Assembly: GCA_024639455.1 (NCBI GenBank)
Contig: JAHEIH010000026.1
Span: 118,987-182,986 of the forward strand
DNA: 64,000 bases
Direction: 5' to 3'
From: Cellvibrionales bacterium
GTDB lineage: Bacteria > Pseudomonadota > Gammaproteobacteria > Pseudomonadales > JAHEIH01
A model generated the notes under the pieces. It saw only the letters and a program-made list of their open reading frames with translations, was not told the DNA's origin and did not search any database. Position 1 is the first letter of the stretch; the number at the start of each line of letters is the position of its first letter. This document shows positions 3,001 to 20,224 of the stretch, piece after piece. A program made the position numbers and the translations under genes.

Positions 3001-4165
3001 CCACGTCATCCACCACGTCGACCACGGGCACAACAGTGAAGGTTGTTGTCCCTGTATCTGTCAGTTCACCATCGCTCACTTCAAAACTCACCACAACATC
3101 GCCGTTGAAATCGGGATCGGGTGTAAAGGTAAAGGTGCCGTCAGCGTTATCTGTGATAGTGCCGTTATCAACGCTGACATTTACTACGCTAAGGTCAGCA
3201 TCGGTGTTGTCGATGTCGTCGGTCACCCCAATTAATTGGTCTTCGGTGATGATCAACGAACCATCTTCAGGAATACCCACGATGGTAGAACCATCAGAAG
3301 CCGTCACTTCGGTATCCACAATAGTAATGGGGCCAACTTCGGGGGCATCGTTGACCGGGGTCACGTTCAATGTCGCAGTATTAGGCACGGTAATAAGATC
3401 ATCGGTAACGTCGAAACCAAACGATACATCGCCGTTCCAGTTCGCATCAGGGGTAAAGGTAAAGGTACCGTCGCCATTGTCAGTCAGGGTGCCGTCACCG
3501 GCGGTTAAGACCACATTGCTAACGGTAAGGGGCTGGCCCTCGGGGTCAAAAGAACCGAATAGCAGATCTTGGCCAGTAAAGGTAATCGAACCGTCTTCGT
3601 CTATTTCACCCAAATCCACATTGGCCACTTGTGGAGGCAGGTTAACGTCTTGTTCTTGGCTGGCATCGCCTTCAACAATGGCGCCATCGGTCGCGCCGGT
3701 GCCGTCGAAAGCCACTTGTTCATTAACGCGATCTAGCATCACGAACGAGTGGCCCTCTGTCTGACCGCCACCGGTCAAACCGGCCGCGGTTTCTTCTAGA
3801 AGGTCGTCGAGCGTGCCGTCGCCCTCTAAGGCAGCCAGAATCTGCTCTTCTTCGCTGCCACCGTCCTGGCCACGAATGCCTGAGATCAATTCATCCAGAG
3901 TCTCTTGGCTGGCGGCGGCCTCTTGGGCGGTAGCCGCAAGCTCTGCTACCACGTCGGGCGTTAGCAAGGTTTCTTGAACACCGCTCACTACCAGCGGAGA
4001 ACCGTCCATCATGCTCAATTCAACCGAGCTGCCATCGGGGGTTACTAAGACCTCACCTTCGAAGATAGTGTCCCCCGCTTTAATTTCGCGCATTTCGCCG
4101 TTTTCATTACGGGCGAAGGCGGTGCCTAATACGGCGGCGACGGTTGCGATTGCTTGACTGGCCAT
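1..4165 (-). CDS. LapA-type giant repetitive adhesin, type I secreted (3' end beyond window)
   Basis: An open frame of 1388 codons runs from an ATG at 4165 off the left edge. An AAAGGA ribosome site lies 8 bases before the ATG. Residues 1 to about 130 form a LapA-like retention module, with a TAAG site at 126-129. A spacer rich in acidic residues follows to about residue 180. Then come about three cadherin/tandem-95 Ig-like repeats, with motifs such as DGTFTFTPD. From about residue 460 there are roughly nine VCBS repeats of 103-105 residues, each opening near GTND and holding GNWTY-type cores. In known systems the N-terminus plugs the outer-membrane pore and holds the adhesin on the surface until LapG cuts it. 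The C-terminal secretion signal is not visible. The exporter genes lie just upstream in the same direction. The family call is firm, but the ligand is unknown. Confidence 0.9.
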   Translation of the reverse strand, partial: MASQAIATVAAVLGTAFARNENGEMREIKAGDTIFEGEVLVTPDGSSVELSMMDGSPLVVSGVQETLLTPDVVAELAATAQEAAASQETLDELISGIRGQDGGSEEEQILAALEGDGTLDDLLEETAAGLTGGGQTEGHSFVMLDRVNEQVAFDGTGATDGAIVEGDASQEQDVNLPPQVANVDLGEIDEDGSITFTGQDLLFGSFDPEGQPLTVSNVVLTAGDGTLTDNGDGTFTFTPDANWNGDVSFGFDVTDDLITVPNTATLNVTPVNDAPEVGPITIVDTEVTASDGSTIVGIPEDGSLIITEDQLIGVTDDIDNTDADLSVVNVSVDNGTITDNADGTFTFTPDPDFNGDVVVSFEVSDGELTDTGTTTFTVVPVVDVVDDVVEIDQDTPVIVNVMDNDNFEGEGTVTAVGTPGNGSASVNADNTVTYVPNPGFIGEDTFTYTVTTETGDTETATVTVTIVSSDNPANLGTDSGDVTEGGPLTDSGTISIDDPDAGENVFQVQDSTQGDFGSFDIDANGNWTYTLDDTLDAVQSLGEGDQLTEIFPVQSVDGTETNVVVTINGTNDVPTFTPGSNTVGDDAGTVKEEEPLEATGTVMIEDADTNEDMFQPQDNTEGAHGDFTIDEDGNWTYVLDNNDPVVQALPEGEIITETFPVISVDGTETEVVITIVGTNDVPVLTGDSGAVTEDTVLTTSGTVTISDTDAGESSFVPQTATVGTYGSFTLAADGTWSYALDNDNADVQALGNGDSIQESFSVTSFDGSATETVTIIITGTNDTPTFTEGNSTLGDDAGVVTEDATLTASGTVAITDTDADEAFFQPETDKAGDYGSLTIDENGNWTYTLDNSNADVQSLSEGDTLTDTITVSSVDGTTTEITVTVEGSNDVPTLTGDSGSVTEDTVLSTNGTVTIADTDAGESEFAPQASTIGTYGSFTLAADGTWSYALDNDNADVQALGNGDSIQESFTVTSFDGSATETVTITINGTNDTPTFTEGNSALGDDAGVVTEDATLTASGTVAITDTDADEAIFQPETDKAGDYGSLTIDESGNWTYTLDNANTGVQALNNGEQLDDTFTVTSVDGTETNIAITINGTNDVPTITTDAQDGTVEEDDTLTASGTVTSHDIDTSATATFSGDATGTYGSFAIDAESGDWTYTFDNEQSLAAGETHTETFTVTVTDDQGATATQDVTITLTGTNDAPVITSAAQTGAVEEDITLSATGTVTASDVDNNATATFSGDATGTYGSFAIDAESGDWTYTFDNEQLLAAGETHTETFTVTVTDDQGTTVTQDVTVTISGTNDDPILTVGTLDATEDGASVTGIASFTDVDTSNTHTYAVSSMAAGEGSVSIDADTGKYTYSPGADFQDLAAGETTTVSFDVTVT
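991..1369. repeat. Near-identical repeat copy 1 in the adhesin
   Basis: This 379-base block matches 1621-1999 with about 13 differences counted by eye, at an exact offset of 630 bases (210 codons, two VCBS units). The other VCBS units in the gene are clearly more diverged, which points to a recent internal duplication of a two-unit block or to gene conversion. A further, more diverged pair with a 309-base (103-codon) period lies at roughly 245-500 and 554-809. Confidence 0.9.
1621..1999. repeat. Near-identical repeat copy 2 in the adhesin
   Basis: This is the second copy of the 379-base block at 991-1369, 630 bases away and in the same frame. The strong identity makes this stretch prone to recombination and to collapse during short-read assembly. 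Confidence 0.9.
3779..3790 (-). other. Candidate LapG cleavage site (TAAG) in the adhesin
   Basis: Residues 126-129 of the adhesin read Thr-Ala-Ala-Gly, directly before a Gly-rich linker. In LapA-type adhesins the periplasmic cysteine protease LapG cuts within a double-alanine motif of this kind at a similar distance from the N-terminus. The site is seen directly. Its use as a protease site is inferred, and lapG and lapD are not in the window. Confidence 0.65.
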
Positions 4166-4329
4166 GACGGTATTCCTTTATCTAAAAGATTTTCTTAGCC
4201 GTAATAGTAGAAAAAGGATGTGTCCACGACATTGGACTATTGGGCGAATTTAAGATCAGTTAGGTATTTAGAAGATGCCGCTTATAACCAAAAAGACAGA
4301 TTTGCTAATCTTGCGCGAGTTCTGGTTAT

Positions 4330-4953
4330 TTAGTGCAGCTTGACGTTGTTCATGGTGAGGGCAAGCTGTACCCGATCGCGCACGGCCATTTTGTCGAACA
4401 CCGAGGAAAGATGGGCTTTCACGGTGCGTTCTGACATGTGAAGTTGCTCGGCAATTTCCTTGTTGGTGGCACCTACCGCCACTTGCTTGGCCACATCGAG
4501 CTCTTTGTGGGTCAGCTCGTTTAAGCCATAGATGTTGCTATCTTTAGGTTTGTCGGCGGAAACGCGGTTAGCCATGCTAACAAGGCGGCGCATCACAGCA
4601 GCACCCACCCAGAGCCCGCCGTGTTCTACCACCTGGGAAATCTCAACCAACTGACTAGGCGCGGCGACGTTGTGGCAGTAGCCATAAGCACCGTTACGCA
4701 GCATCTCGTAGGCTTCGTCGTCGTTGGGTAGAGAAGACATGACGATCACCGGCGAACCGGAAGCAATACATTGATTAACAAGTGCCATGCGCTCTTGGGC
4801 TGACGTGTTAGAAATATCAAACCACAACATACGCTTTTCACCCTCGCGGGCGGGGGTTAATTCGAACAGCGATGATAATCCTTGGGCATCGGGAAAGGCT
4901 TCCTGCCAACGAGGACGCAGACGCCCCCCGTGACCCACAAAAATGTGCTTCAT
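4330..4953 (-). CDS. LuxR-family DNA-binding regulator inside the lap operon
   Basis: The product has 207 residues. The C-terminal part (about 146-200) is a clear LuxR/GerE helix-turn-helix, with LTHKELDVAKQVAVGATNKEIA and SERTVKAHLSSV. The N-terminal half resembles a response-regulator receiver but lacks the acidic pair near the start. An Asp at residue 46 (LWFD) sits about where the phosphorylated Asp would be. It may therefore be a degenerate or non-canonical receiver. Its ATG directly follows the stop of the secretion adaptor (TAAATG), so it is translated with the exporter genes. The adhesin starts 164 bases downstream. It probably regulates the adhesin or its export operon; that role is inferred from position only. 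Confidence 0.85.
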   Translation of the reverse strand: MKHIFVGHGGRLRPRWQEAFPDAQGLSSLFELTPAREGEKRMLWFDISNTSAQERMALVNQCIASGSPVIVMSSLPNDDEAYEMLRNGAYGYCHNVAAPSQLVEISQVVEHGGLWVGAAVMRRLVSMANRVSADKPKDSNIYGLNELTHKELDVAKQVAVGATNKEIAEQLHMSERTVKAHLSSVFDKMAVRDRVQLALTMNNVKLH

Positions 4954-6408
4954 TTATCGTTCCGTTAAGGCGTACTGCTTAGCGCGTAATACGGGTTTCA
5001 TTAGATAAGCCATGATCGTTTTTTTGCCGGTAAGAATATCGACCTCAGCCACCATGCCGGGAATAATCGGCATATTTTCGTTGTTGAACGACTCGGTCGT
5101 TCTCACCCTTACGTTATAGTAGGCATTTCCTTCTTCGTCGATGATCGTATCGGCGCCAATGCGTTCAACAGTGCCTTGAAGGCCGCCATATACCACAAAA
5201 TCGTAGGCGGTAAATTTCACCATGGCCTCTTGGCCGGGGCGCAAAAAGGCAATATCACGCGGCTGAATTTTGGCTTCTAACAATAGGGTATCGTCGAGCG
5301 GTACAATCTCGACAATTTCGCGACCAGGCAAAACCACACCGCCCAACGTATTGAAATAAAGGCGCTTAATGGTGCCTTTAACAGGCGATTTCACCAGGGT
5401 TTGATTCACCCGGTCGGTCAGGCCGGTGCTACTCTCTTCTAAGGCATTTACTCTGGCAATGGTGGCAGAAAGGTCTTCCCGCAATTCGTTAAAGTACGCT
5501 AGCTCGACTTCGCGTTTACTGTTAATAGCCTCGGTAATGGAAGATTTTGACTTTTCGATTTGCGCCTTGGTCTGCTCTAATTCGCCGTTGATATTGGTGG
5601 TGTCGCGCTCCAGCCTTAACAGCTCAACCTCAGACACCGCCCCTGAGCTCACCAAGGGGCGGGTAACGTTCAATTCGCGGGTACTCAAAGACAACGACTT
5701 AGTCAGCTGGTCTTTGCGTGCCTCTAACTCGCTCAATTCTTGTTGGCGCTGAATCAGCTGTTCGTCAGCGATGTTGCGGATCGCGTTCAGACGCTGCAGG
5801 TTGTCACCGTAAAGGCGTTTCTCTTGCGCCAGAATAGTGGGAATCAGCTCTTGCAGCTCAGTACTGGGCTCGAAGGGTTGGTCGTTTACCACTGAACTTA
5901 AGCGTTCAACTTTGGCGCGTAATCCCAACAATTCGGCGCGACTTTCTCGCAACATCGACTCAGATCGCGTCTGATCAAGGCTAATTAGCAACTGTCCTTG
6001 CTCAACAATATCGCCCTCGCGGATGAGAATTTCCTTCACCACACCGCCGTCTTGCGACTGGATGATTTGTACCTGCTGCGAAGGAATCACTCGCGCTTCT
6101 CCGCGGGTCACCTCGTCGATTTCAGCCCAGGATGCCCATAACACTAGGAAGATGACCATCAAGCCGATGGTGTACAACAGGCTGTGCACCCGCAGCGGCT
6201 GTTGCTCCACAAAGGCACGGTTTACGTCGGCATTCCAGTGTTGCTCCTCGGCAGATACATCCTTTAGCCATTTGCCAAACACCGCAAAAATGAAGCGGTC
6301 GAATAGCCGCACAATGACATTGTCGCTGGCGCGCTCCAAGAAATCTTTCTTGGGTTCGGGCGGTTGCTGCAGTTCGGGCGGCAATGTTGATTCTTGCTGC
6401 TCTGCCAT
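4954..6408 (-). CDS. lapC: HlyD/LapC-type periplasmic adaptor of a type I secretion system
   Basis: The product has 484 residues: a cytoplasmic N-terminus of about 75 residues, one membrane segment at about 76-94, then a HlyD-family periplasmic region. That region has a lipoyl-like half (VIPSQQVQIIQSQDGG), a long coiled-coil hairpin at about 140-330 and a beta-barrel second half. In the family it links the inner-membrane ABC exporter to a TolC-like outer-membrane pore. Its ATG overlaps the exporter stop by one base (TAATG), and its own stop abuts the LuxR gene. No LapE/TolC-like gene is in the window. The LapC assignment rests on pairing with the LapA-like adhesin. Confidence 0.9.
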   Translation of the reverse strand: MAEQQESTLPPELQQPPEPKKDFLERASDNVIVRLFDRFIFAVFGKWLKDVSAEEQHWNADVNRAFVEQQPLRVHSLLYTIGLMVIFLVLWASWAEIDEVTRGEARVIPSQQVQIIQSQDGGVVKEILIREGDIVEQGQLLISLDQTRSESMLRESRAELLGLRAKVERLSSVVNDQPFEPSTELQELIPTILAQEKRLYGDNLQRLNAIRNIADEQLIQRQQELSELEARKDQLTKSLSLSTRELNVTRPLVSSGAVSEVELLRLERDTTNINGELEQTKAQIEKSKSSITEAINSKREVELAYFNELREDLSATIARVNALEESSTGLTDRVNQTLVKSPVKGTIKRLYFNTLGGVVLPGREIVEIVPLDDTLLLEAKIQPRDIAFLRPGQEAMVKFTAYDFVVYGGLQGTVERIGADTIIDEEGNAYYNVRVRTTESFNNENMPIIPGMVAEVDILTGKKTIMAYLMKPVLRAKQYALTER

Positions 6409-8537
6409 TAGCTCGCCTTCCCAATTTTGCCCTGACGCAGCGCTTCCACCACGTTGTCGCGGGGACCGTTCGCGACCACCTGCCCGTTATCGATCACCAC
6501 GATGCGATCAGCCAAATCCAATAGCGACGTGCGGTGGGTAATTAAAAACAAGGTTTTGCCCACCGAGTATTTCTTCAGCTGTTTCACCACCGAGGCTTCT
6601 GTGGAATGATCCATCGATCCGGTAGGTTCATCCATAAACATCACCGAGGGACTGTGCACCATGGCGCGTGCTAGGGCCACACCCTTGCGCTGCCCGCCCG
6701 AAAGCGACTCACCGCGCTCGCCCACATCCATGTCCAGACCTTTGGGGTGGCGCTTAATAAATTCATCCAGCCCGGCCATTTCCGCCGCGCGCATAATCTC
6801 AGCGTCACTGACGTGGCGCTGGGCCAGCATGATGTTTTCACGTAATGTACCGCGGAACAGCACGACATCCTGTGGCACGTAGCCTACCCCCAGGCGCAAA
6901 TCGGCTGGGTCGAGCTGACGAATATCTATACCATCAATCGTAATGGCGCCTTCACTTGGGCCATACAAGCCCATCGCTAATTTCAGTAGCGTCGACTTGC
7001 CGCTGCCTACGCGACCCAGGACCACCACGGTTTCGCCCGCTTTTACACTGAAACTAATATTTTTTAGTGCGCCGATATCGCTGCCGGGGTAAGCAAAACT
7101 GACGTTGTTAAATACCAAATTACCGTCGATATGCGGGTGCGATAAAAACTGGCGGCCATCTTCACGCTCAACGGGTTTGGCCATCACTTCATCGAGCGAA
7201 TCGAGTGAGGTGCGCGCGGTGTGGTACTGCAAGATGAGTCCTGCCGCCTGAGAAAAGGGCATCATTACCCGGCTAGCCAACATGTTGGTCGCGATCAAGC
7301 CGCCCATGCTTAGCTCACCTTGGGTAATCAAATATACGCCGGTAATAATCACCGCAATGGAACACATCTGCTGGGTCCACTGGGTCACGGAAATGCTAGC
7401 GTTCGACAGCAAGCGCAGCTGCACGCCAATGCGTGCGAGGAAGCTGGTGGTCTTTTCCCACTTGCGTTGCATGTTGCCTTCGGCGCCCATCGCTTTGAGG
7501 GTTTCTAAACCCACTAAGGATTCGATCAGGGTAGAGTTGCGCATAGCGCCAGCCACGTACATGCTTTCCGAGAGGGTTTTCAAACGCGCCTGGGTAGCCA
7601 AGGCGTAACCCAGCACGATCAATACGGCAACCAAGACAGGTATGACAATCGGCCAAGCAATCCAGGCGATCACGGCGATAAACAAAATTGAGAACGGCAG
7701 ATCGATGAGGGTGGTCACCGAGGCCGAGGTAATGAAGTCGCGCACCGATTCAAACGATCTCAAGTTCGACGCAAACGAACCGACCGAATTCGGCCGTGCT
7801 TCCAGCTTCAAACCGAGTACCCGCTCCATGATCTTAGCGGAAAGACTGATGTCGACGCGGCGGCCGGCCAGGTCTAAAAAGTAAGCGCGCACGGTGCGCA
7901 GCACTACGTCGGCCAACATGATCAGCACCACGCCCGACGCCAACATCCACAGCGTTTCCATGGCGTGGTTGGGCACTACGCGGTCGTAAACGTTCATGGT
8001 GAACAGCGGCAAGGCGAGAGCAAAAATGTTGACAAAGAAGGCGGCCATCAACACGTCGCGATACACCACGCGGTTGGCCTTGATCGCACTCCAGAACCAA
8101 TGCCCCTCTTCTTCGGTGCGGTGCTTGCTCATGGTATGGTCAAACTGGAAAACAGGGCGAGCCATGATCGCCGTGCCGGTGTAACGGCTCGCCAACTGTT
8201 CAAGAGGGATATCTACCGCGGCTGTATTTAGCTCGGGCAAGAGAATCTTGCCGCATTTGCCGTCTTCGCTCCACCCGGTTAATACGCAGGCTGAATCATC
8301 ATCGTTTAAAAGGATAATGGGGAGAAAATGGGCCGCTTGTAGTTGCGCCAAATCCTTCGCAACAAGCTTGCTAGTCATGTTGAGTCTTGCTGAGGCGCGG
8401 CTGAACAATGAAGGTGTCAGCTTGCCATCGACCAAGGGCAGTCCCGACGTTACCGCCTCAGCAGAAGCGGTAACGTCGTGAAAGCGCGCCATGGCGAGTA
8501 GACACTGTACCAGTGGATCTACTTCATTTGGCTTCAT
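6408..8537 (-). CDS. lapB: LapB-type ABC exporter with peptidase-like N-terminal domain
   Basis: The product has 709 residues. Residues 1 to about 130 form a C39-peptidase-like domain without an obvious complete catalytic set, as in exporters of uncleaved RTX adhesins. Six membrane helices follow at about 155-430, then a nucleotide-binding domain. Its Walker A is GRVGSGKST at 508-516, the signature LSGGQ is at 612-616, Walker B MFMDE is at 633-637 and the switch His is near 668. It should drive export of the adhesin encoded downstream. The stop overlaps the adaptor start. The gene begins 24 bases after the DUF885 gene, so co-transcription with it is possible. Confidence 0.92.
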   Translation of the reverse strand: MKPNEVDPLVQCLLAMARFHDVTASAEAVTSGLPLVDGKLTPSLFSRASARLNMTSKLVAKDLAQLQAAHFLPIILLNDDDSACVLTGWSEDGKCGKILLPELNTAAVDIPLEQLASRYTGTAIMARPVFQFDHTMSKHRTEEEGHWFWSAIKANRVVYRDVLMAAFFVNIFALALPLFTMNVYDRVVPNHAMETLWMLASGVVLIMLADVVLRTVRAYFLDLAGRRVDISLSAKIMERVLGLKLEARPNSVGSFASNLRSFESVRDFITSASVTTLIDLPFSILFIAVIAWIAWPIVIPVLVAVLIVLGYALATQARLKTLSESMYVAGAMRNSTLIESLVGLETLKAMGAEGNMQRKWEKTTSFLARIGVQLRLLSNASISVTQWTQQMCSIAVIITGVYLITQGELSMGGLIATNMLASRVMMPFSQAAGLILQYHTARTSLDSLDEVMAKPVEREDGRQFLSHPHIDGNLVFNNVSFAYPGSDIGALKNISFSVKAGETVVVLGRVGSGKSTLLKLAMGLYGPSEGAITIDGIDIRQLDPADLRLGVGYVPQDVVLFRGTLRENIMLAQRHVSDAEIMRAAEMAGLDEFIKRHPKGLDMDVGERGESLSGGQRKGVALARAMVHSPSVMFMDEPTGSMDHSTEASVVKQLKKYSVGKTLFLITHRTSLLDLADRIVVIDNGQVVANGPRDNVVEALRQGKIGKAS

Positions 8538-8561
8538 TTATGTGCGTATTCCTGTGATTGA

Positions 8562-10388
8562 CTAAACCTTTTGGCTGTCGATCCAGTCATTGATCACACG
8601 CTCCAACACTGACAACGGAACGGCACCGCCGCCCAGCACTGCATCGTGGAAGCCTCGAATGTCGAATTTGTCACCCAACACGTCTTTGGCTTTTGCGCGC
8701 AACTCCATGATCTTCAACATGCCCATCTTATAGGCTGTAGCCTGACCTGGCCAAACCAGGTAGCGGCGCACTTCCGAAATCACCTGTCCTTCGGCTATCG
8801 GCGAATTATCGTAAAAATATTGGCGCGCCTGCATTTCGCTCCAGCCCTTGGAGTGTAGCCCAGTATCGACCACCAAGCGAATCGCGCGCCACATTTCGGT
8901 AATTAAACGACCAAAATCTGAATACGGATTGTTATAAGCACCCATTTCTTTGGACAACAACTCTGAATACAAGGCCCAGCCCTCAATGTAGGCGGTAAAG
9001 CCGGCTTGGGTACGGAACTGCGGGACGCTTTCCAGCTCTTGCGCGATAGAAATCTGCATGTGGTGTCCAGGCAGACCCTCGTGATACGCAATCGCCTCCA
9101 TCTCGTTTTTAGGCATGGAGTTCATGTCAGACAGGTGCGCGTAGTAAACACCGGGGCGTGAGCCGTCGGGCGTACCGGGGTAGTAGTGTTGCGCCGCGCC
9201 GTCTTGTTCGCGGAAGGCTTCAACACGTTTCACCACCAAGTCGGCCTTAGGCAAAATGCCAAAGTAGTTGGGCAATTCGCGCTTCATGAAGTCAAAGAAG
9301 GCGGTCGAGTCATCTATGTACCCCTGGCGACCTTCGTCGGTATTGGGGTAGAAGAACTGCTCATCAGTGCGGATGAATTCAAAGAAAGCTTGTAAATCAC
9401 CCTCAAAACCCACACTGTCTTTAATCGCTTCCATCTCACCGCGGAGGCGGGCGACTTCGGCCAGACCAATGTTGTGAATGTCATCGGCGGTGAGACTAAG
9501 TGTGGTGTTGTCACGCAATTGGTAGTTATAGAACGCCTCCCCATTAGGTAGCGCGCTGGCGCCGCGAGCGTCAGCATCGGTATTGGGCAAATCCGCTTCC
9601 ATCCAAGCGATCAAGTTATTGTAAGCCGGTTGAAAATGCTCTAATAACGCCTTTTCTGCCGCTGACTGCAGCTCACCTGCTTGCTCGGTGGTGATGTCGC
9701 CTTTTGCTAACAAGGCATCAATTTTACCCTTGGCATCCGACCACAACGGCGCATCGGTCTCACTGGCACTGAAGGGGGCACCGGCGAGCAGCTTTTTAGA
9801 TTGATCGATCACGCCTTCGTAGGCAAAGCGAGGGGGGCGAATGCCTTCTTCAGCCGCCAATTGCGCACGCGCCAATAACTGGCCTAACGCACGCGACACG
9901 CCGCCCAAGCGGGCAATGTAGGCGTTCATATCGTCAACGCTATCGACGCGGTGGAAGTTGATCAAGAAATTGGGTAAGAAGGCGTGTGCACCTTGCATTT
10001 GGGTAAACACGTAACCGTGGCGGCGGAAGGGCTGTGAAGCCTTGACCAAGCTGTATTGATACATCCAAATGTCGAACGACACCTTAGCATCGTCGTTCAG
10101 CAACTGGTAATCAAAATTAGTCTGAAGATCTTTAACCGTGCCTTCCAACCAAGCAAGCTGCTTGTCGTCAGCGGCTTCGCTCATGTCGTCAACTTGATCG
10201 TACTGATCTTTTCTGCCCAAGCTAGTGAGGGTCATGGGTGACATCTGCAGCTCTTCTTCGTAGCGCGCGTCAAACCATTCATTTAAGCGGGCGGATTCTG
10301 TCGCCGTGACATCATGCTTGAGCGCATTATCTTGGCTACAAGCAACTAAAAATAAAGGGATAAAAATAAAGGATAAAAATGTTTTCAT
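8562..10388 (-). CDS. DUF885-family lipoprotein, putative metallo-hydrolase
   Basis: The product has 608 residues and a lipoprotein signal peptide (lipobox LVAC, Cys17), so it is expected to be membrane-anchored in the periplasm. The body is a DUF885 protein. The motif YHEGLPGHHMQ at about 435-445 resembles a zinc site (His436, Glu437, His442, His443) and is the hallmark of this family. Members are thought to be peptidases, but the substrate here is unknown. It lies 24 bases upstream of the lap exporter gene in the same direction and is divergent from the acyl-CoA ligase. Whether it belongs to the adhesin system or is only a neighbour cannot be decided from the sequence. Confidence 0.85.
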   Translation of the reverse strand: MKTFLSFIFIPLFLVACSQDNALKHDVTATESARLNEWFDARYEEELQMSPMTLTSLGRKDQYDQVDDMSEAADDKQLAWLEGTVKDLQTNFDYQLLNDDAKVSFDIWMYQYSLVKASQPFRRHGYVFTQMQGAHAFLPNFLINFHRVDSVDDMNAYIARLGGVSRALGQLLARAQLAAEEGIRPPRFAYEGVIDQSKKLLAGAPFSASETDAPLWSDAKGKIDALLAKGDITTEQAGELQSAAEKALLEHFQPAYNNLIAWMEADLPNTDADARGASALPNGEAFYNYQLRDNTTLSLTADDIHNIGLAEVARLRGEMEAIKDSVGFEGDLQAFFEFIRTDEQFFYPNTDEGRQGYIDDSTAFFDFMKRELPNYFGILPKADLVVKRVEAFREQDGAAQHYYPGTPDGSRPGVYYAHLSDMNSMPKNEMEAIAYHEGLPGHHMQISIAQELESVPQFRTQAGFTAYIEGWALYSELLSKEMGAYNNPYSDFGRLITEMWRAIRLVVDTGLHSKGWSEMQARQYFYDNSPIAEGQVISEVRRYLVWPGQATAYKMGMLKIMELRAKAKDVLGDKFDIRGFHDAVLGGGAVPLSVLERVINDWIDSQKV

Positions 10389-13761: not shown

Positions 13762-16563
13762 ATGAAAAAAAGCAAACTAGCTACAGCTATCAAGTTTGCG
13801 ATGGGTGCAACTGCTGCTTTGTCAGTGCTGCCCGCCGCACACACAATTGCTGATGATACGGATCTCGAAGAAGTAGTTGTCACTGGTTCACGCATTAAAA
13901 CCGACGGTTTTGAAAGCGCGAGCCCAGTAACTGTTTCGACTGCACTCGAAATTAAAGCGACCGGTATCAACAAGATCGAAGACTTCTTGAACAGCTTGCC
14001 TCAGTTAGAAGCTGGCGATAACTCGTACCTTTCTAACGGTGCCTCTGGTAACGCAACCCTTGACCTGCGTGGTATGGGTGCCAACCGTACATTGGTTCTG
14101 ATCAACGGCCGTCGCATGTCACCCGGTGGTGCTTACAGCTCAGCCGCGGCTGACGTTAACCAAATCCCTACCGCTATGATTGAGCGTGTTGAAGTACTGA
14201 CCGGTGGTGCATCTACTGTGTACGGTGCAGACGCAGTAGCGGGTGTTGTTAACTTCGTACTGCGCGAAGACTTCGAAGGTGTTGAAATCAACATGGGTAC
14301 TTCGGGCTTCATGCACGACAACGACAACACTTACATCCAAGGTCTGATGGATGATCGCGGTTTCGATTACCCTAAAGGCGGCAACGGCGTTGACGGCCAA
14401 GCGGACACTATCGACATTTTGATCGGTAGCAACTTCGCTGACGGCAAAGGTAATGCGACCATGTTTGCCACATGGCGTAAAGGTAGTGAGCTACGTCAAG
14501 AGTCACGTGACTACTCTTCTTGCGCACTGAACTCAGCAGGCACTGCGTGTGGTGGTTCAGGTAACGCTATCGTTCCTAACTTCTATATCTCTCAGATCGT
14601 TGATGGTGCACTTGATTGGGATACCTTTGAGTACTGGACGCTGGATGCCAACTCTAATTTCATTCCTTCTTCAGGCAACATTTACAACTATGCCCCTGTT
14701 AACCACTTCATGCGTCCCGATGAGAAGTGGACCTTTGGCGGTAACGTTAAGTATGCGGTGAACAACAACGCTAGCGTTTATGGCGAGTTCTCTTACATGG
14801 ACTACCGCACTGCAGCACAGATCGCTGAATCTGGTACTTTCTTCGCTGAAGAATACCAATTGCCTTACGATTCTGAGCTACTGAACGACGCACAACGTCA
14901 AGCCTTGACCGACACTTGGGGCCTTGGCCCTGGCGATGACTTCGCTGTTTACATCGGTAAGCGTAACGTTGAGGGCGGTGCTCGTTCGAACATTCTCGAA
15001 AACAACAGCTTCCGCATGGTATTGGGTGTAGAAGGCACCATGGCTGAAGGTTGGGATTACGACGTTAACTACCAAAAATCTCGTGTAAACTCTTCTTCAA
15101 CCTACATCAATGACTTCTTTGCTCCCAAGATTTCAGAAGCTTTGGAAGGCGCATCCTATGATGTATTCACCTACCAAGGTGTGACGTCTGAACAGGCTAA
15201 CGCCTTGACCGGTGTCGCGATGCTTCGCGCAGGTATCAGCCAAGAAATCTTCTCTGGTTTCGTCAGTGGCGACACTGGCTACAGCCTGGGTACTACCGAC
15301 CGTACCATTAGCTTAGCTGCGGGTATGGAACGTCGTGAAATTAGCTTTGACCGTAACGCAGATACCGTTTACGAAGAAGGCCAATTGCTGGGCCAAGGTG
15401 GTCCTACTGCGAGCATCGAAGGTGCTTATACAGTAACCGACCTGTTCTTCGAAACAGCGATTCCAGTATTGGACAACCTGACCACTGAATTGGGCTTCCG
15501 TTCATCGGATTACTCAACTTCTGGTAACCAGAATACCTACAAAGTGGCATTCAGCTATGAGCCTATGGACACTTTCCGTGTTCGCACCGGCTTCAACCGT
15601 GCTATCCGTTCACCTTCTGTCATTGAGATGTTTGCACCTTCTAACCAAGGTCTGTGGAACGGTGATGACGCATGTGCAGGCGCTAACCCTGTTTACACCT
15701 TCGAGCAATGTGCTCGCACTGGTGTGACTGCCGCTCAATACGGTAACATCGTCGCTAGCCCTGCTAACCAATACAACGCCGTCTACGGCGGTAACACTAC
15801 TCTGAAACCAGAGACCGCTGATACCTTCACCTTCGGTGTGGTTGTTGATCCTATTGAGAACCTGACTTTCTCGGTTGACTACTGGAGCATCGAGCTGTCT
15901 AACGCGATTGCAACCGTTGGTCCTCAAGAAGTTATGAAGCAGTGTGCTGAAAACGGCAATGATGCGTTCTGTGGCTTGATCAACCGTGGTAACGCTGGTT
16001 CATTGTGGCTGGGTACTTCAGGCTACATCACAAGCACCAACCAGAACTTGGGTGAATTGAACCTGGAAGGTGTTGACTTCGCAGCAGCTTACGCAATGGA
16101 ACTTGCTGGCGGTACTATGAGCTTCAAATTCTCAGGTACTCACCTGATGAAGAAAGAAACTCTGACTCTGCCTGGTGACGAAACTACTCGCTATGACTGT
16201 GTGGGTGAAGTTAACTCTAACTGCTTCCCATCAATGGATTGGCGTCACACCGCTTCAGCCAACTTCACTAAAGATGACTGGAGTGTAGGTGCTAAGTGGC
16301 GTTACTTCGGCGCTGTTGATTACACTGATGAATCACAAGCCGACACCATTGCAGCAGATAACTTGGGTTCACAATCGTACATTGACTTGAACGCGGCTTA
16401 CACCGTAAGCGAAAACGTTGAAGTATCAGGTACTGTGCGCAACCTGTTGGACAAAGAGCCCCCAATGGTTGGTGGTACTCTGTCATCTAACGCTAACACC
16501 TTCGCTGGTTTCTACGACACTCTGGGTCGTTACGTCAGCGCCAACGTGACTTTCACGTTCTAA
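13762..16563 (+). CDS. TonB-dependent outer-membrane receptor
   Basis: The product has 933 residues: a signal peptide of about 30 residues, then a TonB-box-like region (LEEVVVTGSRI), a plug domain (LDLRGMGANRTLVLINGRRM, then GGASTVYGADAVAGVVNFV) and a 22-strand-type barrel ending in aromatic VTFTF. Paired cysteines appear in predicted outer loops, for example in the segments near residues 253-264, 636-650, 727-736 and 813-821. The substrate is not predictable. It belongs to the VTGSRI type, abundant in marine Gammaproteobacteria. AGGGGA lies 6-7 bases before the ATG. A 186-base leader precedes it, a terminator follows, and a sulfotransferase gene comes next in the same direction. Confidence 0.93.
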   Translation: MKKSKLATAIKFAMGATAALSVLPAAHTIADDTDLEEVVVTGSRIKTDGFESASPVTVSTALEIKATGINKIEDFLNSLPQLEAGDNSYLSNGASGNATLDLRGMGANRTLVLINGRRMSPGGAYSSAAADVNQIPTAMIERVEVLTGGASTVYGADAVAGVVNFVLREDFEGVEINMGTSGFMHDNDNTYIQGLMDDRGFDYPKGGNGVDGQADTIDILIGSNFADGKGNATMFATWRKGSELRQESRDYSSCALNSAGTACGGSGNAIVPNFYISQIVDGALDWDTFEYWTLDANSNFIPSSGNIYNYAPVNHFMRPDEKWTFGGNVKYAVNNNASVYGEFSYMDYRTAAQIAESGTFFAEEYQLPYDSELLNDAQRQALTDTWGLGPGDDFAVYIGKRNVEGGARSNILENNSFRMVLGVEGTMAEGWDYDVNYQKSRVNSSSTYINDFFAPKISEALEGASYDVFTYQGVTSEQANALTGVAMLRAGISQEIFSGFVSGDTGYSLGTTDRTISLAAGMERREISFDRNADTVYEEGQLLGQGGPTASIEGAYTVTDLFFETAIPVLDNLTTELGFRSSDYSTSGNQNTYKVAFSYEPMDTFRVRTGFNRAIRSPSVIEMFAPSNQGLWNGDDACAGANPVYTFEQCARTGVTAAQYGNIVASPANQYNAVYGGNTTLKPETADTFTFGVVVDPIENLTFSVDYWSIELSNAIATVGPQEVMKQCAENGNDAFCGLINRGNAGSLWLGTSGYITSTNQNLGELNLEGVDFAAAYAMELAGGTMSFKFSGTHLMKKETLTLPGDETTRYDCVGEVNSNCFPSMDWRHTASANFTKDDWSVGAKWRYFGAVDYTDESQADTIAADNLGSQSYIDLNAAYTVSENVEVSGTVRNLLDKEPPMVGGTLSSNANTFAGFYDTLGRYVSANVTFTF

Positions 16564-16581
16564 GGTTGATGCGGTAAAAAA

Positions 16582-16608
16582 CAGCGGGCAATGGCCCGCT
16601 GTTTTTTT
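16582..16608 (+). terminator. Rho-independent terminator after the TonB receptor
   Basis: The stem CAGCGGGC/GCCCGCTG with a 4-base loop is followed by seven T. It ends 17 bases before the sulfotransferase start, so that gene would be expressed by read-through or from a promoter inside or near the receptor gene. Confidence 0.92.
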
Positions 16609-16625
16609 ATCAGCCTTAAAAAGTT

Positions 16626-18098
16626 ATGACACAAAAATTAAGCCACCAAGAGCGTTATCAACGCGCCCGTCTCGCCTTTCAACAGGGTGATACACTTTCC
16701 GCCGAACAACGATTGCGTTCACTGGTTGATGATTTTCCAGAAATCCACGAATACCGTATCGCTTTTGCTAATTTTCTTAGTGCGCAAAATCAGGCCAATG
16801 AAGCAGTAACATTATTTCGCAGGAGCACACCTGATGATGCCTACAATCGCGGCCATTACCTAAGCCATTCCGGCCAAGCCCATGCCGCCATCGAACAATT
16901 CAAAATGGCTATTCAACTGGGATTGGCCTCACGCGCTGATGCCCTTAGCCGCATAGCCGGACTATTGCGTGAAGAATTACATGACGATGATACCGCAGAA
17001 AAATATTACCTAGAGGCCATTGGCGTTGACCCATCTTACAATGCAGCAAAAATCAATCTAGCTAACCTTTATCAAGATCGCGGCGACAAAAATAGCGCCG
17101 ACAAACTGCTTGAACAACTAGACGATAACGACCCACTTTACCCATTAGCGTTGACTAGACGCGCCGCCATGCACCGCCGCCAAGATATGCTACAAGCACT
17201 TGAACTATGCATGAAGAATTGCAAGCCAAACCGCGACATACAATGCGATATGCTCTATGAACTTGGCCACCAAAATGAAAGTCAGGGTCATTATGATCGT
17301 GCCTGGCAGGCATTTCAGGCCGCCAACCAGATTAACGCTGCTTTCAATCCTCGATTTCAAGCAGAACAGTGGCAACGCCTTTTTGATGACAGCATCGGTG
17401 GCCTGCGAAAAGCGCCAGCGTTTTCCTCTCAAGCCACCGCACCACGCATGTTATTTATCTGTGGTATGTTCCGCTCTGGCTCAACACTCCTTGAGCAAAT
17501 ACTGGCTGCTCATCCCAAGTGCAGCGCTGGCGGCGAACTCAACCTGTTCCCAAAAATGGCGGCACAGATTGATGAGGTTGCTCTTCAAGAAACTTACCAA
17601 CACTATCTATCTCGCATTCAAGTATTGGGAGATTCGACCCATTGGGTGACTGATAAGCGCCCCGACAACCTGTCGTATGTCGACCTCATTAAGCAGGTCT
17701 TCCCCGACGCGTTGATTGTCATTACCGAGCGTGACCTTGGCGACAATGCTTTATCAATTTATCAACAGCGGCTAGGACCGGCAATGAATTACGCTTGCCA
17801 ACCTGAGCACATCAAACAATATGCGCAATGGTGCCAACAACTTTCACAACACTGGCAAGATCAATGGCCAAACGATGTGTTTACCGTCCGCTATGAAGCG
17901 TTGATCGATCAACCTCAGCAGACCTTAGAAATACTTTTCAAGCGTTTAGACATCGACTGGCGCGAAGAATGCCTAGCCTTTCACACACTAAACAATACCG
18001 TCAAAACTGCGAGTGTTTGGCAAGTGAGGCAGCCACTAAATAATCGCTCTATTGGCCGAAGTAAGCACTACCCGGACTTTTTAAAGCAGCTGGGTTAG
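16626..18098 (+). CDS. TPR-repeat sulfotransferase
   Basis: The product has 490 residues. The N-terminal half (about 1-250) is a run of tetratricopeptide repeats, for example the unit around AEKYYLEAIGVDPSYNAAKI. The C-terminal half is a sulfotransferase-family domain. Its 5'-PAPS-binding loop reads FICGMFRSGSTLLEQIL, and a second segment, VTDKRPDNLSYVDLI, follows. Such proteins transfer sulfate from PAPS. The TPR part could bind a protein or peptide acceptor, but the acceptor is unknown. No signal peptide is seen, so it is likely cytoplasmic. It follows the TonB receptor and converges on a TPR oxygenase gene; the two share four bases (TTAG). Confidence 0.9.
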   Translation: MTQKLSHQERYQRARLAFQQGDTLSAEQRLRSLVDDFPEIHEYRIAFANFLSAQNQANEAVTLFRRSTPDDAYNRGHYLSHSGQAHAAIEQFKMAIQLGLASRADALSRIAGLLREELHDDDTAEKYYLEAIGVDPSYNAAKINLANLYQDRGDKNSADKLLEQLDDNDPLYPLALTRRAAMHRRQDMLQALELCMKNCKPNRDIQCDMLYELGHQNESQGHYDRAWQAFQAANQINAAFNPRFQAEQWQRLFDDSIGGLRKAPAFSSQATAPRMLFICGMFRSGSTLLEQILAAHPKCSAGGELNLFPKMAAQIDEVALQETYQHYLSRIQVLGDSTHWVTDKRPDNLSYVDLIKQVFPDALIVITERDLGDNALSIYQQRLGPAMNYACQPEHIKQYAQWCQQLSQHWQDQWPNDVFTVRYEALIDQPQQTLEILFKRLDIDWREECLAFHTLNNTVKTASVWQVRQPLNNRSIGRSKHYPDFLKQLG

Positions 18099-19891
18099 AT
18101 GGGAAGCACGTCTATAGGTGCAGTCATACGGCGTTGAGGCGAATCGAATGGGCGCGTACCGTGCCACATATAGGAAGGAAACAGCAACGACATACCTATC
18201 TGGGGACACAGTGCTTGCATTACTTGCTCGCGATCACCCAGTTTCAACGATGTTTCACCAAGGATCACCCAGCCTTGTTGCTTGGTGTCATCTGGATGAC
18301 AAATATCAGGGACGTCCACGTAGCAGGGCCCAGACAACCATCCCTCAGGGTGGACGTGGTTGGTGTGAAAACCATCGCCCTGTAAATTGACAGACCAAGC
18401 CCCAGCAAAACGAAAACTCTGCGCTAGTCGCCGGTAAAATGGGTGTTCATTATCCCCTTTAGGCAACCCCGCTAAAAATGAAGCAATACGCTGTTGCATC
18501 GCACAACGGTAATCTTGAATAACAGCATCTTGCTGAACAAAGAGGTTACCCATGGTTTGCGTTCCACCGGCAACGCTTTGATCAAGTGGCTGGCGTGTTG
18601 CACGATGCAGGCGACTCAAACTAGACGCCAATTGGCTAAAAAAATGCTCGCCGTTGTCGTAATTGCTAGGTACAGGCAGCGGCCGATAATCAATCAAGCG
18701 TTCGTCATAAAGCCAATTGAAGCGGTCATCACCAAGCAAACGCCAACACAAGCCTTTGTAGGCCCATATTTCTTGATTATTAGGTAGCCGTACAGCTATA
18801 TCATCAAGCCTTGCTAGCGCGTCATGGTAGTCTCCACGTTTGATAAAAATACTGGCCAAATCCATTTGCCAACGCGGCCTGTCGCGATCAGCATCTGCCG
18901 CGATGCGAAGATGATGCTCTGCCACATCTAATTGGTCCTGCCGGCTAGTAATAGCCCCCAGCGCATGGTGGTACTCGGCAAGCTTGCCATCCTTTGCCAA
19001 TCCTTCTTCGAGTAAGTGCTTAGCCTCATCTAGTTGATTAGTTTGTATTAATGTTGCGACTTCGTTGAGGCGTACGGAGGGAGTGTATCGGTTAGCTTGG
19101 CGCAGGCGCTGATAGCTCTGTAAAAAATCACTATCTCGCGACTGTTCCCAATAAAGTTGATTGAGCGCTTGGTGTGCCTCTAAATTTTCAGATTGGCTAT
19201 CTAATGCCCGTAACAGATATCGCTCACAATCTGACCAGTTTTCGATATCGTAGTTCAAGCAGCCCATCAGAAAATCATAATTGGGGTCCTGATCAAACAA
19301 CGTAGATTTTTCTGCTAGTTGCTGCAGCGCCTCGAATGATTGCCCCAAATCACGCTGCATTCTGGCACGCTTTAAAAGCACTGAAGTTTCATCACCATAC
19401 TGTGCCAATACCCCATCGACGAGCGTCAAAGCATCGGCGGTTTCGCCCTTAGCATGCTGGATATCCGCACTAAGTATTAGCGCCGCAGGGTCGTTTGCTG
19501 CCTCTAGCAGCACTAACGCTTCGTCATAGCGCTGCAATTTTAAGCCAAGCATCATCGCAAAATTACGCACGGCATCGCCGTGCTGCGGCTTGTCTTTCAA
19601 GGCTTGTTTATAGTGTTGCTCAGCTTCGCTAAAGCGCTCTAACTGGTAAAGCATATTGGCAAAATTACCGCGTGCTATAGCATGCTGGGGCTGCTGCTGT
19701 AGGCAAAATTCAAAGGCTTGTTGCGCTTGAGGGAAATGGCCGGCACCCTTAAGTGCCATGGCTAATATATGCAGTAACTCTGGATGCTTTGGGGAAGCTT
19801 GCAGAGCCGCTTGCGAATGCTGCACAGCTAGATGCCAAGCACCTTGCTGCAAAGCTTGCACAGCGGCATTTGCATGCTGCTGAAGATTCAT
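18095..19891 (-). CDS. TPR-repeat protein with C-terminal 2OG-Fe(II) oxygenase-like domain
   Basis: The product has 598 residues. Residues 1 to about 400 are TPR repeats. The last 110 or so match the putative 2OG-Fe(II) oxygenase family. The motif HTNHVHPEGWLSGPCYVDVP supplies candidate metal-binding histidines, FPSYMWHGTRPF holds the distal His, and an Arg follows for 2-oxoglutarate. It would be an Fe(II)/2-oxoglutarate hydroxylase with an unknown, probably protein or peptide, substrate. No signal peptide is present. Its ATG directly follows the stop of a small lipoprotein gene (TAGATG), and its 3' end overlaps the sulfotransferase gene. The pairing of two TPR-tethered modifying enzymes beside a receptor is notable. 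Confidence 0.85.
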   Translation of the reverse strand: MNLQQHANAAVQALQQGAWHLAVQHSQAALQASPKHPELLHILAMALKGAGHFPQAQQAFEFCLQQQPQHAIARGNFANMLYQLERFSEAEQHYKQALKDKPQHGDAVRNFAMMLGLKLQRYDEALVLLEAANDPAALILSADIQHAKGETADALTLVDGVLAQYGDETSVLLKRARMQRDLGQSFEALQQLAEKSTLFDQDPNYDFLMGCLNYDIENWSDCERYLLRALDSQSENLEAHQALNQLYWEQSRDSDFLQSYQRLRQANRYTPSVRLNEVATLIQTNQLDEAKHLLEEGLAKDGKLAEYHHALGAITSRQDQLDVAEHHLRIAADADRDRPRWQMDLASIFIKRGDYHDALARLDDIAVRLPNNQEIWAYKGLCWRLLGDDRFNWLYDERLIDYRPLPVPSNYDNGEHFFSQLASSLSRLHRATRQPLDQSVAGGTQTMGNLFVQQDAVIQDYRCAMQQRIASFLAGLPKGDNEHPFYRRLAQSFRFAGAWSVNLQGDGFHTNHVHPEGWLSGPCYVDVPDICHPDDTKQQGWVILGETSLKLGDREQVMQALCPQIGMSLLFPSYMWHGTRPFDSPQRRMTAPIDVLPI

Positions 19892-20152
19892 CTAGCCTTG
19901 TGGACCTACGGTAGCTCCACGACGATCCATACCGTCTTTTGCATCTTGCGAGGCCTCACGTATGCGCTCGATTTGTTCGGGAGTATAGCAAATGCGTTCG
20001 CGTATCAACTTACCAGCCACCTGTTCCATGCGGCAGATTTTGCCGTCATCGGCGCCAGATAATTCACGTTCTTTGCGCAACTTAGCTTGGTTTACACAGG
20101 CCATCAGGCTCAAGCAGAGCATGCCAGCCAACATGATTTTAAAAAAATTCAT
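19892..20152 (-). CDS. Small lipoprotein of unknown function
   Basis: The product has 86 residues and a lipoprotein signal peptide with lipobox LMAC (Cys20). The mature part is charged and holds ICRMEQVAGKLIRERICYT, with two spaced cysteines that might form a disulfide. I recognise no function. The ATG at 20152 has AAGGAG 5 bases upstream. A GTG two codons earlier would overlap that ribosome site and is less likely. The stop abuts the TPR/oxygenase start, so the two are translationally linked. The gene lies 72 bases after the alpha/beta hydrolase, in the same direction. Confidence 0.75.
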   Translation of the reverse strand: MNFFKIMLAGMLCLSLMACVNQAKLRKERELSGADDGKICRMEQVAGKLIRERICYTPEQIERIREASQDAKDGMDRRGATVGPQG

Positions 20153-20224
20153 AAGCACTCCTTGTTGAAGTATTGATCATAAGCGATTCATTGATGATGG
20201 CAAAGTCGAGCCTTGCCAATTTCG

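Follow-up and report, generated by a model that had tools for sequence, protein, structure and literature searches.

TonB-dependent receptor genes recur beside TPR-fused sulfotransferase and oxygenase genes in Pseudomonadota and point to a possible, undescribed chemical decoration of receptor or cargo

Several described systems can be compared with a small group of genes in a Cellvibrionales bacterium, where a TonB-dependent receptor (TBDR) gene adjoins genes for a sulfotransferase fused to tetratricopeptide repeats (TPRs; hereafter ST), a second TPR protein ending in a 2-oxoglutarate (2OG)/Fe(II) oxygenase domain (TPR-2OG protein) and a small lipoprotein. The window analysed is a stretch of 64,000 nucleotides (bases 118987-182986 of contig JAHEIH010000026.1) from a genome of 2.88 Mb. 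First, the protein-tyrosine sulfotransferases TPST1 and TPST2 are described as Golgi-resident (PMC6094398). The ST resembles them in its catalytic fold, in a sequence match over residues 272-453, in its loop for 3'-phosphoadenosine-5'-phosphosulfate (PAPS) and in aligned Arg, Glu and Lys residues; as read from its sequence and model, it differs in a long TPR arm that replaces the N-terminal part, and it shows neither a membrane anchor nor a signal. Second, OGT and SPINDLY, which act in the cytosol, likewise consist of a long TPR superhelix fused to a protein-modifying transferase, but the catalytic domains of the window proteins, a sulfotransferase and a 2OG oxygenase, are unrelated to the glycosyltransferase. 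Third, human AspH, which acts in the endoplasmic reticulum, has the TPR plus 2OG-oxygenase architecture, and AspH-domain proteins, some with TPRs, are found in the same clusters elsewhere; the window protein, however, belongs to PF13759 and not to PF05118.

Among bacterial systems, RaxX-RaxST-RaxAB of Xanthomonas includes a sulfotransferase that yields an exported peptide sulfated on tyrosine (PMC6637879). Three points bear on the comparison with the window unit. No RaxX-like precursor gene was seen by reading: no small open reading frame (ORF) lies between or beside the genes except that of the lipoprotein, ORFs below 80 aa not being listed and no RaxX profile having been run. No RaxB-like C39-peptidase exporter belongs to the unit either, since the ATP-binding cassette (ABC) exporter of the window (6408-8537), at a distance of 5 kb, gave no match to C39. 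Finally, the ST is TPR-fused, whereas RaxST is not. Neighbourhoods of TBDR, SapC and tryptophan halogenase genes, where the halogenases are reportedly linked to the receptors, resemble the unit in that putative tailoring genes adjoin a large TBDR gene, and differ in catalytic chemistry. The genome studied here carries one such parallel island (L168, G000:C13:1-20000, positions 1125-8926), which holds a tryptophan halogenase (PF04820, 525 aa), SapC, a 989-aa TBDR and a second halogenase-like gene. No description of a linkage between TBDR, ST and hydroxylase genes was found in the searched open-access literature: one paper places one TonB-type gene near one gene for an arylsulfate sulfotransferase, another enzyme family (PMC10932419), and the accessible text of a second holds no TBDR-sulfotransferase pair (PMC3908369).

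Recurrence of the receptor-enzyme neighbourhood

TBDRs of the window clade and of distant groups recur beside STs, TPR-2OG proteins and TPR-fused AspH proteins across distant Pseudomonadota, and we regard this linkage as almost certainly functional. The final counts rest on six-frame ORFs, which supersede other figures where these differ. Searches for relatives scored limited candidates per genome and genome counts are therefore lower bounds; Pfam confirmed TPR repeats in a handful of proteins besides those of the window, and the remaining TPR-STs were called by length and similarity.

Within the order, at least 50 of 194 genomes hold ST relatives (E up to 1e-20). The sample taken from them comprised 40 places, for the most part, though not in every case, the best of more than 100 listed, with neighbourhoods of up to 20 kb and some contigs of 3-12 kb. 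A TBDR lay within 500 bp of 13 of the 40, where 1.1 would be expected from the mean TBDR density of 16 genomes (p = 4e-11), and within 5 kb of 21 (6.8 expected, p = 2e-7). At the highest TBDR density the expectations rise to 1.6 (p = 2e-9) and 8.9 (p = 3e-5), respectively. For the 22 loci inside the 16 counted genomes, which were selected after data had been seen, the counts were 8 vs. 0.64 expected within 500 bp and 14 vs. 3.8 within 5 kb. A set of 80 ST loci of named genomes had a TBDR within 500 bp in 16 cases and within 5 kb in 24. The TBDR-linked STs include those of Microbulbifer, Thalassotalea, Pseudoalteromonas, Xanthomonas hortorum, Sphingomonas, a Hyphomonadaceae and a Woeseiaceae metagenome-assembled genome (MAG); loci labelled Planctomycetota, Phycisphaerae or Pelagibacteraceae were not TBDR-linked.

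The receptors found within 500 bp of STs measure approximately 757-1043 aa, and many are only distantly similar to the window TBDR. Since TBDRs of distant groups pair with STs, what these loci share appears to be the receptor rather than any single ligand, and receptor and ST may have come together on more than one occasion. A second, only distantly similar group (approximately 757-888 aa) lies 43-213 bp from STs at L049, L052, L054, L060, L062, L064, L066, L068, L151 and L154.

The same association emerges when the receptor is the starting point. Nine of the ten closest listed relatives of the window TBDR in the order have an ST, TPR-2OG or AspH gene no more than 5 kb away; the remaining one (G040, L235) has a methyltransferase gene only. 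Linkage falls to 1 of 13 among the next relatives, the linked one being the second TBDR of the G080 cluster and one of the others (G163) lying on a 6-kb contig. In a phylum-wide draw of previously unexamined TBDR loci, some from genomes that had appeared in earlier class draws, 8 of 30 had an ST, TPR-2OG or AspH gene within 5 kb. Twenty control TBDR loci (L250-L269) gave no match to PF13759, AspH, SapC, halogenase or lipoprotein. The single ST match among them, in L259, is an ORF of 272 aa that has no room for TPRs and lies at a distance of 4.3 kb from the receptor gene. These controls are a contrast and not a random sample: 40 TBDRs were counted in the lists for five genomes, 8 of them in studied clusters and 3 with a halogenase or lipoprotein gene next to them were removed, and 20 of the remaining 29 were taken.

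From the oxygenase side, PF13759 occurs in at least 52 of the 194 genomes, mostly in short proteins, the TPR-fused form being rarer. Of 14 TPR-fused genes with long reading frames, nine have a TBDR within 5 kb (L037, L038, the window, L162-L164, L189, L200 and L201); five do not (L161, L165, L166, L202 and L203), the contigs of L202 and L203 being under 6 kb.

Gene order is conserved as well. In a sister genome of the same family (L037), the order and orientation of TBDR, ST and TPR-2OG genes are kept, with identities of 65% (partial TBDR), 45% and 58%, respectively. The same arrangement, with the oxygenase gene facing the other two, recurs in Thalassotalea mangrovi ZS-4 (L081, with the lipoprotein gene between), in T. 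litorea MCCC 1K03283 (L083), whose TBDR is 51% identical to that of the window, and at L270, which comes from the phylum-wide draw. All four families are found together in the window, L081, L189 and L282; L088 holds them too, with an oxygenase cut by the contig end, and so does L107, with an oxygenase of 222 aa. The first-pass annotation, which had proposed the cluster as a functional unit, would have called it coincidental if homologues were rarely neighbours or if the ST always belonged to another pathway. That survey has now been run, and from the ST, the TBDR and the TPR-2OG protein alike the genes form a recurring neighbourhood.

The gene set extends beyond the window families. The commonest unlabelled cluster of neighbouring genes (11 loci) encodes aspartyl/asparaginyl hydroxylases (PF05118), TPR-fused in the representatives at L040 and L092, and these TPR-fused hydroxylases belong to the same set. 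SapC, oxygenases of the 2OG-FeII_Oxy_3/4 type and class-I methyltransferases also recur.

Proteins and layout of the window unit

The ST belongs to the PF13469 family (Sulfotransfer_3; 116 bits vs. a cut-off of 27). A TPR superhelix, with helices at approximately residues 7-258, precedes a TPST-like, PAPS-dependent sulfotransferase domain at approximately 274-490, and the predicted model has a pLDDT of 93.5. Foldseek aligned the catalytic half with human TPST1/2 (E 3e-8 to 5e-7; TM-score by target approximately 0.6-0.67) and a tick TPST, the TM-scores by target of these hits spanning 0.54-0.67, and the TPR half with OGT and SPINDLY. The PAPS loop reported by the first-pass annotation is present (CGMFRSGSTLLEQIL). 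In the phmmer alignment with TPST1, R283, E304 and K344 stand opposite the TPST1 Arg, Glu and Lys, which we take to be catalytic residues; all three, together with R369, are invariant among 40 STs. The predicted model thus describes a domain with the protein-tyrosine-sulfotransferase fold. The CurM sulfotransferase also matches the ST, although weakly, and no signal peptide is apparent from reading the N-terminus. The genome encodes a second ST (L057), whose gene is flanked by a BCCT transporter gene and by SpoU/RNase R genes and has no TBDR gene next to it; on a short contig of the sister genome (L058), its relative is separated by 70 bp from a partial TBDR.

The TPR-2OG protein belongs to PF13759 (2OG-FeII_Oxy_5; 63.7 bits vs. 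a cut-off of 27), scores 32.2 bits against TIGR02466, below the cut-off of 62.5, and gives no match to PF05118 at E 0.001. Its TPR superhelix spans approximately residues 2-385 and its oxygenase domain approximately 490-598. The predicted model (pLDDT 89.9, pTM 0.60) resembles the TPR arm of OGT, the VIA-align comparison covering its TPR part alone; human AspH, with TPRs plus oxygenase, is in its Foldseek list, and a solved PF13759 relative is 2RG4 (E 2.7e-4). Residues H512, H514, H577 and R588 are invariant among seven TPR-2OG sequences, and this H-x-H...H...R set presumably comprises the metal-binding histidines and the 2OG-binding arginine. Reading of the sequence revealed no signal peptide here either.

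The receptor has the plug (PF07715, 80.7 bits) and barrel (PF00593, 108.7 bits) of a TonB-dependent receptor. Its eight cysteines form the paired loop cysteines noticed previously, now located at 254/263, 638/650, 728/737 and 813/821. Columns 254, 263, 638, 650 and 728, the five compared, hold Cys about equally often in TBDR relatives without an ST, so that these positions appear to be characteristic of the TBDR family.

The lipoprotein carries a lipobox (LSLMAC) after a hydrophobic stretch, as read from its sequence, and has no Pfam match at 0.001 and no NCBIfam match at 0.01. It belongs to a loose family with the motif C[RK]-x4-[TA]G-x(5,7)-C-x-T, matches to which are rare (at least 6 of 194 genomes of the order and at least 9 of 369 genomes in the class draw). 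Members lie inside the clusters or beside their TBDRs at L039, L077, L081, L088, L093, L107, L189, L272 and L282, the first six being loci chosen for their ST, a choice that biases them. A TBDR is found within 5 kb of three of the seven strong lipoprotein loci outside the query alignment. The lipoprotein was not found in the copy of the locus in the sister genome, which is approximately 75% complete, and it is present in 6 of 28 richer clusters and missing from 22. On these grounds its role as an obligatory part is rejected, and the family distribution indicates that it is an optional part of the unit.

Table 1. Features of the window discussed in the text, with positions counted from the first base of the window.
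Feature	Position	Strand	Basis or remark
TonB-dependent receptor, 933 aa, four cysteine pairs	13762-16563	+	PF07715 and PF00593 matches
Intrinsic terminator between TBDR and ST genes	~16576-16609	+	66-nt stretch: -35.7 kcal/mol, z -7.6
TPR-sulfotransferase (ST), 490 aa	16626-18098	+	PF13469 and TPR models
TPR-2OG protein, 598 aa	18095-19891	-	PF13759; TPR_19 in 5 stretches
Small lipoprotein, 86 aa from ATG	19892-20152	-	Lipobox reading; GTG start would give 19892-20158
ABC exporter and HlyD-type fusion protein (type I secretion)	4954-8537	Opposite to TBDR	5 kb upstream of TBDR

The ORFs, with Pfam matches for the three larger proteins, confirm the four genes as first described (Table 1). The convergent ST and oxygenase genes overlap by 4 bp, and the stop codon of the lipoprotein gene abuts the start codon of the oxygenase gene (TAG|ATG). 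Beyond the lipoprotein gene lie an alpha/beta hydrolase gene and then genes for fructose-bisphosphate aldolase, PGK, GAPDH and transketolase, these last four named by sequence reading. The strong terminator separating the TBDR and ST genes, absent from the first-pass annotation, would leave the ST to its own promoter or to read-through. It is also found in the sister genome (L037) and in Thalassotalea (L081 and L083). A special design at this position was considered and rejected: 17 of 23 same-direction TBDR-ST pairs have a terminator, yet so do 39 of 60 TBDRs with other downstream genes and 5 of 14 control TBDRs. Under a second gene model the frequency for TBDR-ST pairs was 15 of 21, and the terminator is not specific. 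The 37 adjacent pairs surveyed may include duplicates, L041 and L100 being the same Haliea contig and L038 and L169 one contig.

Some related loci show other arrangements. A class-I methyltransferase gene of approximately 304-329 codons lies beside TBDRs of the window clade at L039, L163, L164, L170, L200 and L235. At L249 (G232:C31:87001-107000), one 1011-aa TBDR stands amid five ST genes and a short PF13759-like gene. ORFs of approximately 150 aa lie between neighbouring large TBDRs at L039 (13844-14299), L170 and L242-L245; the one compared with Pfam has no match. In the Woeseiaceae MAG (L084, 2235-10199), TBDR and ST genes are followed by genes for HlyD and a C39-peptidase ABC transporter, an arrangement reminiscent of raxAB; no peptide gene was seen at this locus.

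Receptor, cargo or another substrate

The first-pass annotation had suggested that the long TPR regions could hold a protein or peptide substrate. This part of its proposal has become plausible: the TPST-like fold of the ST and the recurrence of TPR arms on three unrelated catalytic domains (ST, PF13759 and AspH) favor a polypeptide, which is probably the substrate of both enzymes. The mechanism we propose would begin in the cytosol, the site of PAPS and 2-oxoglutarate synthesis. There, the TPR groove of each enzyme would hold an unfolded polypeptide, as in OGT, the ST would sulfate it, most likely on tyrosine, and the TPR-2OG protein would hydroxylate it. The polypeptide would be the TBDR precursor before its export by Sec, and the exported receptor, bearing modified surface loops, could then differ in its recognition of ligands, phages or colicins, with the lipoprotein as an optional periplasmic accessory. 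Cytosolic modification of exported proteins has precedents in the glycosylation of adhesins by HMW1C and TibC; to our knowledge, surface-loop modifications of the kind proposed are known in no bacterial outer-membrane protein.

That the TBDR itself is modified in this TPR-guided manner is a tentative reading. The receptor precursor is narrowly our first choice because TBDRs of distant groups are the common partner while their ligands must differ, and because no precursor peptide lies beside the window unit. A broader version is rather doubtful: TPR-guided enzymes dedicated to the task would sulfate and hydroxylate a whole TBDR family while the receptors are still in the cytosol, awaiting export, and ST, PF13759, AspH and perhaps halogenase domains would form a mix-and-match decoration kit for TonB receptors.

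Several observations weigh against the receptor as substrate. No TBDR lies within 5 kb of 19 of the 40 ST loci of the order or of 56 of the 80 named-genome loci, some of them on short contigs, and the many STs without a nearby TBDR indicate an enzyme class that is broader than a role with TBDRs and not dedicated to it. Likewise, the TPR-2OG loci L161, L165 and L166 have ample flanks yet no TBDR. Tyrosines in an acidic context showed no general enrichment in ST-adjacent TBDRs. One candidate site, Tyr397, was the top Tyr column of a TBDR column scan (13/14 ST-linked vs. 3/12 others). Across 49 TBDRs it was found in 16/22 vs. 4/27 when receptors were labelled by an ST within 5 kb and, best of all columns, in 17/19 vs. 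2/28 when labelled as the TBDR nearest to an ST, a label set after the data had been seen and a count from which rows L234 and L238 were dropped, as their contigs end too near. Under this last label, tree-independent pairs were 4.5 concordant and 0 discordant (sign test, p = 0.06). Improved gene finding gave 16/21 vs. 2/25 by motif in the first sample. A prediction fixed beforehand nevertheless failed on fresh loci, with Tyr397 in 1/4 ST partners vs. 4/19 others by motif and 1/5 vs. 7/22 by alignment, among six partners in all and with rows lacking the motif or holding a gap set aside. Tyr397 is thus rejected as the sulfation site, and shared ancestry most likely explains its earlier association.

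Two further observations fit a peptide better than the receptor: the C39-peptidase ABC exporter and HlyD genes directly behind the TBDR-ST pair of L084, and a published table for Pontixanthobacter. Table 2 of that source gives two sulfotransferases and an aspartyl beta-hydroxylase whose ortholog numbers are interleaved with those of lasso-peptide B2, PqqD and asparagine-synthase proteins (PMC10040529). If consecutive numbers mark neighbouring genes, as we assume, a lasso-peptide cluster would carry these tailoring enzymes, and we have on this account slightly lowered our estimate for the receptor and raised that for a peptide cargo. The enzymes would then modify a cargo, either a peptide such as a lasso peptide or a RaxX-like sulfopeptide, or an aromatic metabolite, which would undergo sulfation and hydroxylation in the cytosol and leave the cell, the TBDR then serving to take it up again or to sense it. 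Islands that resemble tailoring clusters, either with TBDR, SapC and tryptophan halogenase genes (L168) or with several 2OG oxygenases and methyltransferases, are consistent with such a cargo, and RaxST is itself a bacterial tyrosine sulfotransferase. Conversely, neither the surroundings of the window unit nor L084 showed a gene for a precursor peptide, several distant TBDR groups pair with STs, and type I exporter genes were found in four loci, one being that of the window, 5 kb off and without C39. A set of 148 further neighbour ORFs from 32 loci yielded no lasso family among the matches listed (25 of 80 and 25 of 72 families), a listing in which families with a single match may be missing; the listed families include one enzyme of the MbnB/TglH/ChrH type, which acts on ribosomally synthesized and post-translationally modified peptides. 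A modified cargo is a possibility that we hold as good as level with a modified receptor.

It is unlikely that the enzymes act on a general substrate such as a surface polysaccharide or a lipid and that the linkage to TBDRs arises from their common regulation by the nutrient state. In favor of this reading, the PF13469 family is broad, with CurM as a further, weak match, many STs have no TBDR nearby, and in another alphaproteobacterium sulfotransferases of unstated type are reported from glycosyltransferase clusters (PMC4110880). The closest listed solved catalytic folds are, however, those of TPSTs, and TPR arms on three unrelated catalytic domains argue for a polypeptide. More unlikely still is that both enzymes act on the lipoprotein or on some other exported protein. 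The abutting lipoprotein and oxygenase genes, the family members within ST/2OG/TBDR clusters (L081, L189, L282, L088 and L107) and the one 45 bp from the TBDR of L272 would suit this proposal, already raised in the first-pass annotation; it is weakened, as is that of a required part, by the patchy occurrence of the lipoprotein described above, the presence of a TBDR within 5 kb at three of its seven strong loci and a six-row family alignment without a conserved tyrosine. Finally, a chance adjacency in one genome, which the strong terminator and the opposite strand of the oxygenase gene might have suggested, is refuted by recurrence counted from three starting points and is highly improbable.

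As gatekeepers of the outer membrane, TonB receptors determine which nutrients, phages and antibiotics pass through it, and the recurring genes described here point to an undescribed chemical decoration of the receptor or of its cargo. If the receptor is the target, a layer of control hidden from genome annotation would act on these gates. If a peptide cargo is the target, sulfated and hydroxylated peptides would be traded through TBDRs. Either reading would give functions to genes that are currently named 'tetratricopeptide repeat-containing sulfotransferase family protein' or 'putative 2OG-Fe(II) oxygenase'.

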